From Anaerolineaceae bacterium (GTDB lineage: Bacteria; Chloroflexota; Anaerolineae; Anaerolineales; Anaerolineaceae): DNA of 36,080 nucleotides. Position 1 is the first letter of the stretch. Each line of letters starts with the position of its first letter. Below, one piece after another: positions 7,669-35,200 of this stretch. The stretch spans positions 1 to 36,080 of the forward strand of contig JAFPZX010000076.1 of NCBI GenBank assembly GCA_017417055.1. The letters are read 5' to 3'. The notes beneath the pieces are model-generated. The model saw only the letters and a list, made by a program, of their open reading frames with translations, had not been told where the DNA came from and ran no database searches. A program made the position numbers and the translations under genes.

Positions 7669-10119
7669 TTAAATCACTTCATAAATCTGTGTGTTCCCCT
7701 GAGTATACACACAAGTCCAAAGCTCACCCTCCAGCGCAGCAAATTTCTCAATTCCCTCTGCGCTGTACATACCTTTTTCCATTTGGCCCACGATGATATA
7801 CTTCACATTATATTTGTCTAAAAATGCCTGTGCGGAAAGCATATCGGCTGTGTTATAAAAATCATGGATTCCATTCACCCGTGCCCAAACCTGCCCGGAA
7901 ATCGGACCGCGCTGCTGACGCTGGTGATAATTCCAACCCACCACTCCCGGGAGACCGGTATAAACCGTATACCGGGAACCGAATTTATATTCCGTCGGAC
8001 TGGCTTCAACGATTACCGGAGAACCTTTTACATTTTCCTGCATCCAGATGATGGCTTGATAGTCCTCATTCAGATCCATCAAAAATCCGTCCTGCCAATA
8101 GGAGGAGGTTTCCATATATTTCATGCCATCCAGCGTATGCGGAGCCCGGTCAGACATCCGATCCGTCATTTTGTCCGTTCCCGCAAACACGGTATACAGA
8201 AAAGCACAGAAAACCAGCACACAGCCCGCCATTTTATATATTTTGATCCATACGCCATCAAATTTTTCCGCACGAACCACATCGATGGTACAGGAAAGAC
8301 CAAAAGCTGAACAGATGGAAAGCATCACCCATATCTGGTTGTAAAATTTGAAGACAACGTTCATGCGGCCGTTGTCGCCAAACAGATGAACCATCTCGAC
8401 CAAAACCGACGCGAATAAAGAGACGCCGATAAGGAAAAAGACAAACCGCTTCGTTTCGGTAATGTCTTTCCGCAGCAAAAGCAGCAGCGACAAAACCATC
8501 AGCGGCAGGGCAATCCAGATGATCTTCACACCGTCAGCAGCAAAATAAATCAGGATCAGCAAGCCGGCAGCGGCCCCCGTGAACAGCAATCCGCGGTATT
8601 TTCCAAACAGATCCAAACATTCCCGCAGGGACGTATATTTCATCCAATGGTGTATTTCGGAAATATACCAGGCACTGATAAAAAACAGGAAGACGCCCCA
8701 ATGCATAAAATAAGAAGACAGCGGGGTCCGTTCTTCCCGGTAAAGACCGATCTGATTCACCTGAGAATTTGTGGAAAGATAAGGAGAAAACATCCCGATC
8801 ATCAGTGCGGCGAACAGTCCCAAAAGCACCAGCAGAACAAATATGTTCCCGGTACCTTTTTCCCGTCTGAAAAAGCCATAGCGGATCCCCAGGTAAAGCA
8901 GCACGGCGGCAGTTATACAGAAATAAGTCGGGGCATCCCAGGTGTTGGTCGGGATCAGCGTACCGATCAGCAGACTGCCGCTCACAAAAGTCACGATCCA
9001 TTCAGCAGTTGTATAATGTTTTCCGCCCGTCACCCGAAGGATCGTGGCTGAGAGCCACAACAGCACCAGAACCGTCATCGGCAGCGCAAACAGATGGGCA
9101 TGCGGATCACCATAAAGAAAGGTGAAAAACGGGAATTCGGTGATTGAGGAATCAGGAATGGCACGGCTGGGAATCCAATACCAATCGCCTTTATACATTA
9201 TCAGACGCTCGCCTGAGAACAGCTTTGCCAAACCGCTCCAGAAAGCCGCAAAACTATTGGAAGCGCCTCCGTTACGTCCCAATTCAACCAATTCGTTTTT
9301 GATTTGAACCACCGTACCCAGGTTTCCGATTACCTGCATAAAGACCACTGTAAAAAATCCCGCAAGGTTCCCCCTGCGTTTTTTACTGGACGCATCCGCG
9401 TGAAGATACAGCGTTTTCCCGATGCTGAAAGCGGCACTGCCCAGAAAACCGTACCACAATGCCAGGTTCAGGTTAAAGGCTGTCGATGGGACCACCCCCA
9501 GCAGCTTGACCATCAGTCCGGAGAGGTATATACCGTAATAGTAATAATTCAAAAAACCGCCCGCAAACCAGGGATCATACGGAGGAAATTCACTGCTTTT
9601 CAGAATAGCATTGAAATAGGAAAAATCCATCGGGCGTTCCCCGCCTTTGTAGGGATGCCACAGGTCCGGATTCATGAAACGGATCAGTAAAAAGAAGAGG
9701 AAACAGCACAAGAATACAAGCTCAGCCCACAGGATATCTTTTCGTATCGCTTTCAGTGTGCTTTTGATTTTTTTTCGATTGATCAGCGCGATCAGTCCGT
9801 TCAGTAAAACAAAGCCACACAGGATCAGCAGAATATTCCTCTTAGAATATTCCAATTTCAGAGAAGAAGCCAGCCAAACTGCGTATCCCCAGACCATCAG
9901 ACCGAAAAACTTTGAAATCCCCCAGCCTTTATCTTTCAGCGGACGAAAAACCACAGCCGTGAGCGGCATAAATATCACACCCAACAGCCAAAACACCGCC
10001 AGCCAGATCAAAACCGTGAGGACCTGAGAACTGTTTATCAAAGAGGATCGATCAAAGAGCTCCGCCCACGTTCCCGCAGTCTGCTGCGCAGTCCATTGCT
10101 CTGTAGGAAGCATTTCCAT
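7669..10119 (-). CDS. DUF2298 / Chlor_Arch_YYY membrane protein (copy 2)
   Basis: A second large, hydrophobic DUF2298 protein of about 816 residues. The motif is YYYYG near residue 192, preceded by GGERPM and N-ILKS--FPP-D-W as in copy 1. Outside this block the copies differ widely, so the duplication is old and the roles may differ. A TTG at 10125 overlaps the stop of the preceding gene (TTGA), but I prefer ATG 10119 (MEMLPTEQ). GGGAG lies 10 bases before that ATG and only 4 before the TTG. The family is described for Chloroflexi, several archaea and a Clostridium. Confidence 0.88.
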   Translation of the reverse strand: MEMLPTEQWTAQQTAGTWAELFDRSSLINSSQVLTVLIWLAVFWLLGVIFMPLTAVVFRPLKDKGWGISKFFGLMVWGYAVWLASSLKLEYSKRNILLILCGFVLLNGLIALINRKKIKSTLKAIRKDILWAELVFLCCFLFFLLIRFMNPDLWHPYKGGERPMDFSYFNAILKSSEFPPYDPWFAGGFLNYYYYGIYLSGLMVKLLGVVPSTAFNLNLALWYGFLGSAAFSIGKTLYLHADASSKKRRGNLAGFFTVVFMQVIGNLGTVVQIKNELVELGRNGGASNSFAAFWSGLAKLFSGERLIMYKGDWYWIPSRAIPDSSITEFPFFTFLYGDPHAHLFALPMTVLVLLWLSATILRVTGGKHYTTAEWIVTFVSGSLLIGTLIPTNTWDAPTYFCITAAVLLYLGIRYGFFRREKGTGNIFVLLVLLGLFAALMIGMFSPYLSTNSQVNQIGLYREERTPLSSYFMHWGVFLFFISAWYISEIHHWMKYTSLRECLDLFGKYRGLLFTGAAAGLLILIYFAADGVKIIWIALPLMVLSLLLLLRKDITETKRFVFFLIGVSLFASVLVEMVHLFGDNGRMNVVFKFYNQIWVMLSICSAFGLSCTIDVVRAEKFDGVWIKIYKMAGCVLVFCAFLYTVFAGTDKMTDRMSDRAPHTLDGMKYMETSSYWQDGFLMDLNEDYQAIIWMQENVKGSPVIVEASPTEYKFGSRYTVYTGLPGVVGWNYHQRQQRGPISGQVWARVNGIHDFYNTADMLSAQAFLDKYNVKYIIVGQMEKGMYSAEGIEKFAALEGELWTCVYTQGNTQIYEVI

Positions 10120-31553: not shown

Positions 31554-31630
31554 CGCCCAAAGGTCCCAGAGAACAGCCGGAGGAACAGATCCTCGCAAAA
31601 ACATACGGAGTTTGATGTATATATATTGCT
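31554..31630. repeat. ~75-bp direct repeat, copy 1
   Basis: It shares GAACAGCCGGAGGAACAGAT, CCTCGCAAAAAC and GAGTTTGATGTATAT with copies at 33017-33095 and 33981-34058. GAGGA-ACAGA-TCCTC within it can form a small hairpin. It sits just downstream of the AlbA_2 pseudogene. Confidence 0.85.
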
Positions 31631-31645
31631 TATAACTAACTTTTT

Positions 31646-32913
31646 TCAGACAATTGTGAAATGATATTTATTCCGCTCTTCCGCAGGAATAATCAAACCA
31701 TTCAGTTTTAATCGTGTCAGCAGTTCCGTTGCAGAAGACCTTGACAGCCCGGTTACATGCATAATTTCAGCTCTTCCAAAAGAATATTCAAGTCCATATT
31801 CTTCAAAAAGGATTTCAATGTTTTTTCTGGTTCGATTGTTGAGTACAAGAGATCTCACCCGTTCAAGAAAATTTTGATCTTGAACCGAGTATCCGGTTTC
31901 ACGATCAAAAGGGCCGGTTTTATTGTCTGGGAGGCCGGTTTCATTATCAAAAGGGCCGGTTTTATCGTCCGGGAGGCCGGTTTCATGATCAAAGGGGCCG
32001 GTTTTATCGTCCGGGAGGCCGGTTTCACGATCAAAGGGGCCGGTTTTAATGATGAAATCGCGAATATTCTCAGCGGCAATTCCATAATTCAAATTGAATA
32101 ATGTGATAATAAAAGTAGCATGATTGGAGTAATATTTTGGCTGAACTTCTGGTCTTGACAACAAAGCCCTGCGGTAATCCTCATTAATTTTCTTAAATCC
32201 GCTGCCGCGCCTTTCCATCAAATGCATACGATCAAAGAGATCCGCTATAACCGGATTCCGGCGTTTGGATAGAACCATATCTGTATCAAGATTCTGAACG
32301 ATTGTGCCATCAAACATACCACCGGGAGAATAAATTTCCATCCTGTCATCAAAAATGTCAACATGGATTTCACTGCCGATATCAAGATAGTCCCTGTGAA
32401 TAATGGTATTTACAAGACTTTCATTCACTGCCCGTTCCGGATAATCCGGCATATCGATCCGCTGCGTTTCCAACTTTTTCCAGCGTTTTTTGGTATTGTT
32501 CCGCACAAAAGCTTCCGCATCTTCCAGCAATGATTTTTCCCTACATAATAATATGGGGTCTCACTTCCCGGTGAAACGTTGAGAATGACCAGATTTTTTC
32601 CGTCAACAGAAATAAATCGCAGTACAAAAGCTGGCACCGGGTCCATCCTGTCGTGAATGAAACGGCTTATTTTTTCAGCTGTTTCTTCAGCATTCAGCAA
32701 ACCGATAATTTCATTGGTTTTGTCTGCAATTCCAAAAATTAACGATCCGCCGATACCATTGGCAAAGGCACTGACACTTTTCAGCCAGCTTCGCGGATCC
32801 TTTTCTTCCAGAAACTGTTTTTTATCGTATTCTGTAGCCTCACCGAACCAGTTCCGCTGAATTTCATCCGCTGTCATTTGTATTGTGGCTTTGATTTTAT
32901 CTTGTTCGTTCAT
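31646..32913 (-). pseudogene. AlbA_2 / RecG-like ATP-binding protein with internal deletion
   Basis: The first part (32913 to about 32535) is an AlbA_2 domain: MNEQDKIKATIQMTADEIQR, FANGIGGSLIFGIADKTNE, ending in SPGSETPYYYVGK. In another frame, 32530 to 31646 encodes the later part: AEAFVRNNTKKRWKK, PDYPERAVNESLVNTIIHRD, ERRGSGFKKI and a C-terminal winged helix. In intact relatives, by recollection, about 100 residues lie between PYYY-G and the AEAFVRNN segment. A deletion with a frame change near 32530-32545 explains the sequence. The second part alone retains most of the HATPase_c_4-like domain. A 21-bp repeat array lies in its linker. Confidence 0.8.
31893..32061. repeat. coding tandem repeat, 42-bp period with 21-bp half-period
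   Basis: CCGGTTT recurs at 31893, 31914, 31935 and every 21 bp to about 32040. On the minus strand it encodes alternating TGPFD and TGLPD blocks, about eight in all, in the linker before the winged helix. The two half-units differ consistently, so the true unit is 42 bp. Confidence 0.9.
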
Positions 32914-33016: not shown

Positions 33017-33095
33017 TTCTCCGCCCCAAAGATCCCGAAGAACAGCCGGAGGAACATATCCTCGCAAAAACACCAGAGTTTGATGTATATTGCAT
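33017..33095. repeat. ~75-bp direct repeat, copy 2
   Basis: Located between the DUF3800 gene (ends 33123) and the AlbA_2 pseudogene (begins 32913). It begins CTTCTCCGCCCCAAAGATCC and ends GTATATTGCAT, like copy 3. The minus strand has an open frame EDMFLRLFFGIFGAEKAGM, and the same frame in the other copies gives EDLFLRLFSG. Confidence 0.88.
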
Positions 33096-33122: not shown

Positions 33123-33803
33123 TTACAATTGTTTTGATTTTATTTTTTTATAATAGTTTTTTTTGAAATTCCTGTAATTTTCAAAAAAATCATTTTCTGA
33201 TTGAGAAAAGTTATGATGTTCAGCCTTCAGATCGAGCATTTCCATAGTGCATAACAAATCAGCAACCTGAAACAGTCTGTAATCAACTGGTTTCACTTTT
33301 CTCATTTCAACATTTGAAAACAGCGTATTAAAAACAGATGTCAGAATTTTTGTTAACTGTGTCTGACCATTGTCATAATAAATTATCAATTTATCATAAG
33401 AATACCAGAAATCCATGTGCGATTGAATCTCTTTGGATATCTCTTTGCTTAATTTTGCAGTTAATTCAATTTCACCGGAACATTCGGATTTATTAACTTT
33501 TATAGTCATATATGAAATCGATGCCCTAATTGTAAAATAATACAAAATATTAAACAGATGTTTTCTCTCATCTACTGTATGATTTTTGTAATTATTTTCC
33601 CGACGAATCAGCGGTCCAACATGAATTGCATGGTTTTTCCAGCCATAATTCAGTATATGTTCTTCCATAACTTTAATTATGTCTTGAATTTCTTTATTTT
33701 GATCGTGCAGAACCATGGTGACAAGATAATAAGGTGCCCTATAATCATAAAGGCCAAAATCTCCTGATTCATCAATAAAGCAGCTCAATATCTTTTCTGC
33801 CAT
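33123..33803 (-). CDS. DUF3800 protein
   Basis: A 226-residue soluble protein with the DUF3800 opening CFIDESGDFG (Asp11, Glu12, Asp15) and the closing VKPVDYRLFQVADLLC. These acidic residues resemble an RNase H-like metal site; the family's activity is not established and it is frequent in mobile and defence-rich regions. I chose ATG 33803 (MAEKILSC), as AGGA lies 6 bases before it; an earlier in-frame ATG at 33887 lies inside the structured leader. It is AT-rich compared with the housekeeping genes here, consistent with transfer. It has its own promoter. Confidence 0.88.
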   Translation of the reverse strand: MAEKILSCFIDESGDFGLYDYRAPYYLVTMVLHDQNKEIQDIIKVMEEHILNYGWKNHAIHVGPLIRRENNYKNHTVDERKHLFNILYYFTIRASISYMTIKVNKSECSGEIELTAKLSKEISKEIQSHMDFWYSYDKLIIYYDNGQTQLTKILTSVFNTLFSNVEMRKVKPVDYRLFQVADLLCTMEMLDLKAEHHNFSQSENDFFENYRNFKKNYYKKIKSKQL

Positions 33804-33827
33804 ATACGTTCCTGATATATAAAAATA

Positions 33828-33892
33828 GCGGGGGATTCCCCCGCCTTCGGTGGACCAGGGTCTTTCGACCAGCCCGAACAGTTTCAAACTGT
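33828..33892 (-). ncRNA. candidate structured RNA leader of the DUF3800 gene
   Basis: Read on the minus strand: hairpin 1 ACAGTT-TGA-AACTGT (33892-33878). Then a stem TTCGG/CCGAA (33878-33874 with 33850-33846) encloses GGTC-GAAA-GACC (33870-33859), a GNRA-capped hairpin. Then GCGGGGG-AAT-CCCCCGC (33844-33828), followed by TATTTTTATAT. The promoter places the transcript start just before hairpin 1, so the element is transcribed. Several conserved RNA motifs named DUF3800-I and onwards have been reported next to this gene family; whether this is one of them needs a covariance search. Confidence 0.6.
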
Positions 33893-33898
33893 ACTTAT

Positions 33899-33927
33899 AG
33901 TTTACAGATTTTTTATCAATTTGTCAA
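33899..33927 (-). promoter_or_regulatory. promoter of the DUF3800 transcript
   Basis: TTGACA (33922-33927), a 17-bp spacer and TAAACT (33899-33904) on the minus strand. The predicted start falls about seven bases on, right before the first leader hairpin. Confidence 0.85.
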
Positions 33928-33980: not shown

Positions 33981-34058
33981 TTCTCCGCCCCAAAGATCCC
34001 GGAGAACAGCCGGAGGAACAGATCCTCGCCAAAACTCCCGGGGTGTTGTGTATTGCAT
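33981..34058. repeat. ~75-bp direct repeat, copy 3
   Basis: It begins TTCTCCGCCCCAAAGATCCC and ends GTATTGCAT. It lies upstream of the DUF3800 promoter, so copies 2 and 3 bracket the complete DUF3800 unit (promoter, leader, gene). Copies 1 and 2 bracket the AlbA_2 gene in the same way. Confidence 0.88.
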
Positions 34059-34149
34059 AAAATTTTAATTTCCTATGCGTGCAAATGATTGTTGCATATA
34101 TAAATGAGTTTTTTATCACTTCAGCCATGTTTTTTCGGATGGTTTTACT

Positions 34150-34331
34150 CTCCGGGGACTGGACCGCTTGCGGGCCTGTACCCGTCTCACGAACACAGCG
34201 GATAGTCAAACGGGTCTGCGGATGGAGTGCATCAAACCTGAGATGGGATGTTGCGGACAATGATGTGGGAGGCTTTTTATGAGCGAGGCTATGAATGGGG
34301 TACAGGCCCGCAAGCGGTCCAGTTCCCCGAG
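34150..34331. repeat. 26-bp perfect inverted repeat with 114-bp spacer
   Basis: 34158-34183 (ACTGGACCGCTTGCGGGCCT and on) is the exact reverse complement of 34298-34323. Partial matching extends to 34150 and 34331. The spacer has no gene. The right arm ends 30 bp before the IS66 left end. Confidence 0.9.
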
Positions 34332-34489
34332 ACGCACAAGGGAGAAAGCACGCGAAGGCAGGTAAGCGTCAAATAGAAGACGGATTGAAAAGAGTGTAGA
34401 AAAAGGGCATACTCTAAAGATGTCTCAAGATTTCTACGAGAATTTCATAGAAATCTCGAGAAACCTATGAAAGCAGTAAGGAGTATGGC

Positions 34490-34845
34490 ATGGAAAAGGG
34501 AAAATATACTCTGAATTCGGCAAAACACGCATCGAAAATGGCCGAATAGCGGATTCGGATTGGGGAATGTCGGAACAGTGGGAAAACTGTAAGAAACTGG
34601 TGTAAAGAGAATCACAATTCAGTAAAAACATACTACAGATGGCAGCGCAGCGGATCATCTGGGATGTTGAATCAGAAAACAGGTCTATCGAGCCCCAAAA
34701 AACAGGAGAGATCGAATTTGCGGAAACTCCACTAATCAGAATAGAATCAGATTCTCAGCAAGCAATGATTGTGATCCGAAATGGAAACTGGCAGATCGAG
34801 TTACAAAACAATGCGAATCCGGCGCTCATCAAACAGATCATGTAA
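34490..34845 (+). pseudogene. tnpA: IS66 tnpA, with in-frame TAG and a frameshift
   Basis: The ATG at 34490 has AAGGAG six bases before it. It reads MEKGKYTLNSAKHASKMAE, a TAG at 34547-34549 (where relatives have Trp), then RIRIGECRNSGKTVRNWCKE and KTYYRWQR. A frame change near 34645 leads to RIIWDVESENRSIEPQKTGE and the C-terminus. This is the helix-turn-helix accessory protein of IS66 elements. Confidence 0.75.
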
Positions 34846-34858
34846 ATGGTGGTGCAGA

Positions 34859-35200
34859 ATGTTTGACCCATCAAAAGCCAAGCATGTTATATATCGCAAT
34901 CGGATACACGGGATTGACGGACTGACCGGAGTGATTGCAAACACATTCCATCAAAATCCGCAGAGCAATTCACTGTTTTTGTTTTGCGGGCGAAAGAAGG
35001 ACCGGATCAAAGGTTTGTATTGGGATAGCGACGGATATATACTGTTGTACAAGAGACTGGAGATCAGGCGGTATCAATGGCCGCGCAACGAAAGTGAGCT
35101 GAAATAACTAACACCACAGCAATTCCGCTGGCTGATGGAAGGCTTGAGTATATACGTGAAAAAAGCGATTCGACCGATACAGGAATTATTTACATATTAG
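34859..35200 (+). pseudogene. tnpB: IS66 tnpB, with in-frame TAA
   Basis: MFDPSKAKHVIYRNRIHGID, LFLFCGRKKDRIKGLYWD and GYILLYKRLEIRRYQWP are diagnostic of IS66 TnpB. TAA at 35105-35107 interrupts it, and the frame continues as LTPQQFRWLMEGLSIYVKKA to a TAG at 35200. The total of 113 codons is the family's usual length, so a single codon changed. Confidence 0.85.

Follow-up and report, generated by a model that had tools for sequence, protein, structure and literature searches.

What does a short structured RNA do when it lies directly ahead of a gene for a DUF3800 protein? The question is raised by a locus of an Anaerolineaceae bacterium, located in a 36,080-nt stretch of DNA that was analysed as a whole and is referred to as the window. 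As the initial annotation had proposed, a near-consensus sigma-70-like promoter precedes three consecutive hairpins, all of which were recovered by folding (P1, P2 with the GAAA tetraloop, and P3), and these are followed by a likely ribosome binding site and the DUF3800 gene (Table 1). The last hairpin had been described as a seven-pair GC stem with a T-rich run; the run is present, whereas the stem has eight pairs, seven of them G-C, and continues into ATTTTTATAT. The 77-nt segment spanning the three hairpins folds with -32.5 kcal/mol (z = -3.42), a value equalled by none of 200 shuffles, and P3 is one of two terminator-like sites found against 0.5 expected. Promoter-like sites are more common, with 10 found in 1 kb versus 4.9 expected from shuffles, including a better match (11/12 consensus bases) further upstream at 33976-33948. 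Taken alone the promoter match is weak; it gains its weight from lying immediately in front of the RNA.

Table 1. Features of the DUF3800 module and its borders in the window
Feature	Positions	Strand	Evidence
Sigma-70-like promoter, TTGACA-17-TAAACT	33899..33927	-	10/12 consensus bases
P1 hairpin, first in transcript, optional in homologues	33876..33894	-	Fold
P2 hairpin, GAAA loop and 2-nt bulge	33852..33875	-	Rfam, fold, covariation
P3 hairpin, terminator-like, followed by U-run	33827..33845	-	Fold, terminator scan, covariation
DUF3800-XI RNA core (Rfam RF02975)	33830..33876	-	67.8 bits, cut-off 37.8
Likely ribosome binding site, CAGGAA	33809..33814	-	Read from sequence
DUF3800 gene, 226 aa	33123..33803	-	PF12686, 34.8 bits, cut-off 21
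65-nt direct repeat, downstream side of module	33025..33089		Repeat search
65-nt direct repeat, upstream side of module	33989..34053		Repeat search

A further copy of the 65-nt direct repeat is located at 31556-31620, and thus both the DUF3800 module and an AlbA_2 gene region are flanked by repeats, which could mark a cassette-like insertion. They were rejected as boundaries of a mobile element: although they look like cassette ends, a genome-wide search gave just four matches. The neighbouring region at 31646-32913 of the reverse strand encodes Schlafen AlbA_2 and RecG C-terminal-like domains in overlapping frames (32425-32913 and 31646-32530) and looks like a split gene. The second of these frames gives weak PADLOC matches to Argonaute-associated models, and within the gene (31893-32048) 21-nt-spaced repeats encode repeated DKTGPFD/ETGLPD-like units. 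An inverted repeat of 35 nt (34149-34183 and 34298-34332, 94% complementary, 114 nt apart) and, upstream of the module, an IS66 TnpB-like frame on the forward strand (34781-35107) were also observed.

The suggestion that the leader belongs to the conserved RNAs associated with DUF3800 was borne out by the Rfam search, which assigned it to DUF3800-XI with a score above the gathering cut-off and a DUF3800 gene downstream on the same strand. In sequence, structure and same-strand position the window RNA is a clear member of this family. The Rfam model stops inside P3 and leaves it unpaired there, whereas P3 proved to be a covarying helix; this analysis differs from the Rfam description also in finding the RNA without DUF3800, in viral records and in bacteria. 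A match to the cow-rumen-3 RNA (RF03083) in the window reached 19 bits, below the cut-off of 86.7, and the P2 sequence is common to both. The RF03083 consensus ends in a hairpin with the core of P2, so a relationship between the two families is possible.

A pattern search with the P2 core yielded at least 118 stretches in named bacterial genomes and 27 in IMG/VR. Among the matches listed, a full-length DUF3800 frame follows 64 of 119 bacterial RNAs (70 frames less 2 of the own genome and 4 viral ones), and many of the remaining stretches end too early. The carriers among these matches include Lachnospiraceae, Oscillospiraceae, spirochaetes, Flexilinea, Fibrobacter, Nocardioides and others, mostly as metagenome bins. 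Forty-three of 47 diverse RNAs were aligned with MAFFT, blind to structure, with the window copy standing for L001 (L157, L279, L020 and L235 were omitted). The homologous leaders do show covariation: 90.4% of cells are paired compared to 82.0 in shuffles, 61 cells are changed on both sides compared to 18.1, and two-sided changes occur in 11 of 18 pairs, including all eight pairs of P3, for which the figures lean somewhat towards pairing since a hairpin finder delimited the copies, while those for P2 are unaffected. Shifting the partner strand abolishes the signal. The sequence of P1 is variable and, as seen without shuffle control, self-paired in many bacterial copies. Among 55 distinct bacterial RNAs whose gene is intact, 49 are preceded by a -10-like hexamer, compared to 10 of 50 windows taken 300 nt further upstream, and a U-rich tail is likewise present in 49 of the 55. 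Four copies (L020, L080, L089 and L098) seem to have a terminator hairpin distinct from P3. The RNA is a single unit in the window, and no tandem arrays were found in the homologues, two of which (L033 and contig 4 of G637) hold two separate copies.

The Anaerolineaceae genome (assembled in 200 contigs, 4.4 Mb in total) contains three RF02975 RNAs above the cut-off and one below, as well as four DUF3800 genes. Two of these genes (contigs 172 and 96) are located downstream of an XI RNA; the third XI RNA lies at a contig end, and DUF3800 is absent from the stretch read around the weak fourth. The two further genes (L010 and L012, contigs 41 and 102) are accompanied by a DUF3800-III RNA, which is encoded on the opposite strand, converges with the gene and slightly overlaps the 3' end of its frame, and therefore is no leader. 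The RNA and gene start on contig 96 (L119, L003) are identical letter for letter to those in a bin named as Acidaminococcaceae, an identity that likely reflects recent transfer or a binning error.

The mutual dependence of RNA and gene was assessed in 397 Lachnospiraceae genomes, each searched with the DUF3800 protein profile (E 1e-20) and with RF02975. These searches produced 42 protein matches (31 intact and 11 broken genes) and 81 RNA matches, of which 72 exceed the cut-off; weak RNA matches are lost where more than 40 genomes are searched, since stricter filters apply there. An RNA match lies within 400 nt upstream of 28 of the 31 intact genes (27 over the cut-off, the other in G440) and 10 of the 11 broken ones. 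A contig end accounts for one of the three remaining intact genes (G391), and a divergent RNA was recognised by eye for the other two (G393 and G573), so that all 30 testable intact genes possess the RNA (two by eye). The reverse does not hold: DUF3800 matches are absent from the 400 nt around 43 of the 81 RNA matches, and around 35 of the 72 that pass the cut-off. Six of the 43 are accompanied by remnants of the gene and one by a start motif, and 36 lack any DUF3800 stretch of at least 25 residues, with L196 among them showing a match of 18 residues. Fifteen of the 25 genomes holding an RNA without an adjoining gene gave no match to this DUF3800 clade, although the assemblies may be incomplete.

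Solitary bacterial RNAs retain their structure. In 34 of the 36 (L247 and L248, with less than 28 bits, were excluded), 93.8% of P2 cells are paired versus 84.2 in shuffles and 33 P2 cells are changed on both sides versus 9.4; two-sided changes affect five pairs, a number that 22 of 500 shuffles also attained. Compared with RNAs that adjoin intact genes, the solitary ones score somewhat lower (median 50.2 versus 59.0 bits, P = 0.07). This one-way dependence, in which the gene appears to need the RNA and the RNA occurs alone, fits an antitoxin and carries modest weight. It is weak proof because the RNA is a small mutational target between promoter and gene, and its sole loss would therefore be rare under any model. 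A Pfam scan of the neighbours of solitary bacterial RNAs (98 proteins in 93 families, each with at most four members) revealed no common partner, and no alternative protein partner stood out. A prophage origin was likewise set aside, as no structural phage family was present in the best 25 of 63 PHROGs.

Two wider patterns added 20 IMG/VR records to the 27 above, six of which (L267, L268, L272, L273, L275 and L276) were judged by eye to be chance matches, with no P3-like hairpin following, and were dropped. Of the 41 records kept, all of them fragments with contigs of up to 193 kb, 33 contain no DUF3800 in the record and seven match PF12686, one of these seven (L134) only through a piece of the gene at a contig end, below the cut-off; in the remaining record, L278, a DUF3800 remnant was seen by eye. 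Comparison of the flanks of 40 records (L154 was not re-matched) sorted them into 23 context groups, of which 20 lack DUF3800, and solitary viral copies thus occupy at least 20 contexts without shared flanks. Proteins flanking these copies match PHROGs in 17 of 20 cases, among them portal, terminase, tail, exonuclease, helicase and RNA ligase families. An INPHARED search returned 18 weak partial matches, none covering more than 51% of the query and none convincing.

A tRNA gene lies within 1.5 kb of the RNA in 22 of the 33 solitary records and in none of the 8 with DUF3800 (Fisher P = 0.0008), a comparison of partly related records in which six of the eight DUF3800 records form one context group. 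Every such tRNA is on the strand of the RNA, and the remaining 11 solitary copies have no tRNA within this distance. On nine large contigs (those of 13 with RNA coordinates), seven RNAs fall inside tRNA clusters compared to 0.94 expected (P = 2e-6, among the tRNA matches listed). Counted over distinct sequences, a -10-like hexamer precedes 3 of 14 copies in tRNA arrays and 2 of 7 other solitary viral copies, and a U-rich tail is present in 0 of 14 and 3 of 7, respectively. With promoter and U-run mostly missing, the RNA in tRNA arrays appears to be transcribed together with the tRNAs. As P2 served as search key, it is kept in the viral copies by construction; P3 was no part of the search, and a P3-type hairpin follows every scanned viral copy except L145 and L261, several of the stems being weak (5-6 pairs, e.g., L135 and L141). 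The scan ran without L154 and L274, where P3 was seen and seen by eye, respectively; L274 is outside the hexamer and tail counts.

Other structured RNAs and tRNAs were observed near individual viral copies: L152 lies 2.4 kb from a ROOL RNA, a drum RNA directly adjoins L139, and in the tRNA array of the 107-kb contig L277, at a distance of 201 nt from the RNA, ARAGORN calls a tRNA-Pyl that is possibly a suppressor. Solitary viral RNAs are also known from two further classes. A DUF3800-III RNA (87 bits) stands alone at positions 7913-8019 of the 58-kb viral contig L286, a record without DUF3800 match and the only viral class III record (1/1 solitary), and for class I four of 11 records are solitary and seven have DUF3800. 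No tRNA was found in the fetched flanks of the class I and III records.

The protein is predicted to adopt an RNase HII-like fold (pLDDT 93.7), the best fold neighbours being RNase HII, with Argonaute/Piwi and IscB chains also among them. Four acidic residues (D11, E12, D144 and D182) are invariant in 21 DUF3800 sequences. The model thus combines an RNase H fold with an acidic active site, as in the RNase H superfamily, and DUF3800 is a probable ribonuclease. In the Foldseek viral library one DUF3800 phage protein was matched at E 1e-8, along with weak RNase H matches. The profile had no PDB sequence match at E 1, the protein had no match to PADLOC protein models at E 0.01, and a Pfam scan at E 0.001 returned DUF3800 only, with no Abi_2 and no ToxN/CptN/TenpN family. 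Published work links DUF3800 to class 2 loci, those of Cas12a2 among them (PMC10910872, PMC12669027). In a Legionella transposon screen, as far as the available part of the report goes, a DUF3800 gene is among the essential accessory genes, beside antitoxins (PMC7811196); this does not fit a free toxin, and its subfamily may differ from that associated with XI.

We consider it slightly more probable than the contrary that a trans-acting RNA antitoxin restrains a DUF3800 ribonuclease, following a type III-like logic, and that phages carry the RNA as a counter-defence. The locus would produce a short P1-P2-P3 RNA of about 75 nt, mostly ending at the P3 terminator, and a smaller share of read-through mRNA for DUF3800, a putative ribonuclease with the RNase HII-like fold; P3 may still set the ratio of RNA to mRNA. 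The RNA would bind the protein in trans through P2 and P3 and keep it inactive, as type III RNA antitoxins do. When the supply of RNA fails, for example on shut-off of host transcription by a phage, the freed nuclease, whose activity and target we infer, would stop the infected cell. Phages of many lineages would carry P2-P3 alone, mostly beside tRNA genes, to keep the nuclease blocked.

This antitoxin reading is preferred because 33 of 41 viral records, in at least 20 contexts, have the RNA without DUF3800; because the copies in tRNA arrays keep the P3 hairpin, mostly without hexamer and U-rich tail; and because the solitary viral RNAs, unlike the DUF3800 records, mostly adjoin co-directional tRNA genes. 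It is further favoured by the presence of the RNA with intact Lachnospiraceae genes while many RNAs stand alone, the P2 pairing kept in solitary bacterial RNAs, the predicted fold with its four invariant acidic residues, the DUF3800-III RNA of the own genome, which on the opposite strand is no leader, and the precedents of AbiF/RCd22 and phage pseudo-ToxI in the accessible parts of their descriptions (PMC12373285, PMC3475682). Against it count the lack of a convincing INPHARED match, of a PADLOC match and of ToxI-like tandem repeats, the solitary bacterial RNAs that are remains of a module (6 remnants and 1 start motif in 43) together with their lower scores, and the small number of solitary viral copies of classes I and III, none near tRNAs as far as their flanks were retrieved.

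The initial annotation had named a guide, an antitoxin RNA and a regulated leader as possibilities; of these the antitoxin is favoured, and the other two are disfavoured. A guide was rejected since the bacterial RNAs examined (P1, P2, linker and P3) contain no unpaired variable segment of useful length, unlike OMEGA/CRISPR-like RNA-guided nucleases with their variable unpaired guide. The main rival is that the RNA activates DUF3800, as cofactor or scaffold of a nucleic-acid-cutting ribonucleoprotein, and that phage copies are decoys making dead complexes. It predicts much the same distribution, and the RNA accompanies every testable intact gene; RNase H folds serve RNA-guided enzymes, with Argonaute/Piwi and IscB among the fold neighbours, and the links to Cas12a2 and other class 2 loci in the available text of the two papers point the same way (PMC10910872, PMC12669027). 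The short P2-P3 linkers of bacterial copies (a few nt, longer only with an extra inserted hairpin) and the self-paired P1 speak against this explanation, and an activating RNA would be useless in the genomes where no such DUF3800 was found; we regard it as rather unlikely. The strong bias to phage tRNA clusters and the missing common neighbour at solitary bacterial copies would also agree with an RNA that serves some other process, for instance the processing of tRNAs, its use by DUF3800 being secondary. Such a role is improbable, given that bacteria of several phyla have an almost identical core ahead of DUF3800, that a third of the solitary viral copies (11 of 33) lack a nearby tRNA, and that defence-evading tRNAs, too, are kept in tRNA-rich phage regions, according to the accessible text (PMC11555353).

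Decay would make the solitary bacterial copies the remains of modules and the phage copies chance passengers, in line with the remnants and start motif noted above, the 18-residue match in L196, the 11 broken genes among 42 and the somewhat lower scores of solitary RNAs. We give it little credence, as 36 of the 43 lack a longer DUF3800 stretch, P2 pairing is kept with compensating changes in 34, and the RNA recurs in 20 or more viral contexts, most with the P3 hairpin. The least credence goes to a cis attenuator, as suggested initially for the last hairpin, in which P3 would stop transcription unless a signal let the polymerase reach DUF3800. The terminator-like P3 does lie directly ahead of the gene, and the U-rich tail is common where the gene is intact; however, some viral and bacterial copies have no recognised DUF3800 that they could regulate, P3 and terminator look separate in four copies, tRNA-array copies keep P3 without the U-run, and the class III RNA converges with its two genes. 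The solitary copies and those lacking the U-run in tRNA arrays thus disfavour attenuation as the main role.

Beyond this locus, the solitary viral copies suggest that the RNA is the antidote of a defensive nuclease, borrowed by viruses, and they yield a concrete and cheap hypothesis, namely that the cellular or phage RNA neutralises DUF3800. More tentatively, at somewhat less than an even chance, DUF3800-XI may represent an unrecognised class of RNA-restrained antiviral nucleases with an RNase HII-like toxin, distributed over several phyla, with about 20 lineages of tRNA-rich phages carrying the solitary antitoxin RNA as counter-defence and expressing it with their tRNAs. The same logic of restraint by RNA could extend to other RNA classes linked to DUF3800. 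Should the RNA, phage version included, indeed neutralise the protein, the module would add an RNA-antitoxin class with an RNase HII-like toxin, phage tRNA arrays would be stores of anti-defence RNAs, and there may be implications for the accessory DUF3800 proteins described from certain CRISPR-Cas loci. The DUF3800 RNA motifs were reportedly first described by Weinberg in 2017, a work that may hold remarks on solitary copies or copies in phages. The accessible portions of the literature on DUF3800 contain no function for its RNAs and no phage copies, and no title on DUF3800 was found in the literature on phage RNAs and antitoxin mimicry. The RNA family itself is already known; what appears to be new, in the literature searched, is its occurrence in phages and its reading as an antitoxin.

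Among known systems, ToxIN has the arrangement of RNA, terminator and then ribonuclease gene. The present locus resembles it in that the RNA and a terminator, as judged by sequence, lie directly upstream of the gene and in that phages carry a copy of the RNA. In ToxIN, CptIN and TenpIN the antitoxin occurs in tandem repeats, whereas here it is a single unit, and DUF3800 is matched by the Pfam family of that name only and not by the ToxN/CptN/TenpN family. Phage pseudo-ToxI, a phage-borne RNA mimic of the ToxI antitoxin as described in the available part of the source (PMC3475682), differs from the phage copies of DUF3800-XI, which occur as single units in at least 20 contexts and mostly next to tRNA genes. 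In the AbiF/RCd22 system of Clostridioides difficile, which the accessible text likens to type III antitoxins, an RNA neutralises a co-encoded toxic protein both in cis and in trans (PMC12373285); a structured RNA encoded with a protein is shared with our locus, while the protein there is Abi_2/AbiF with links to Cas13 and here DUF3800 with a predicted RNase HII-like fold. Finally, phage tRNAs evade tRNA-cutting defences, according to the part of the report available (PMC11555353). These tRNAs share the genomic place of the viral DUF3800-XI RNAs and, by inference, the purpose of blunting an RNA-cutting defence; they are replacement tRNAs, whereas the DUF3800-XI RNA would act by inhibiting the protein.
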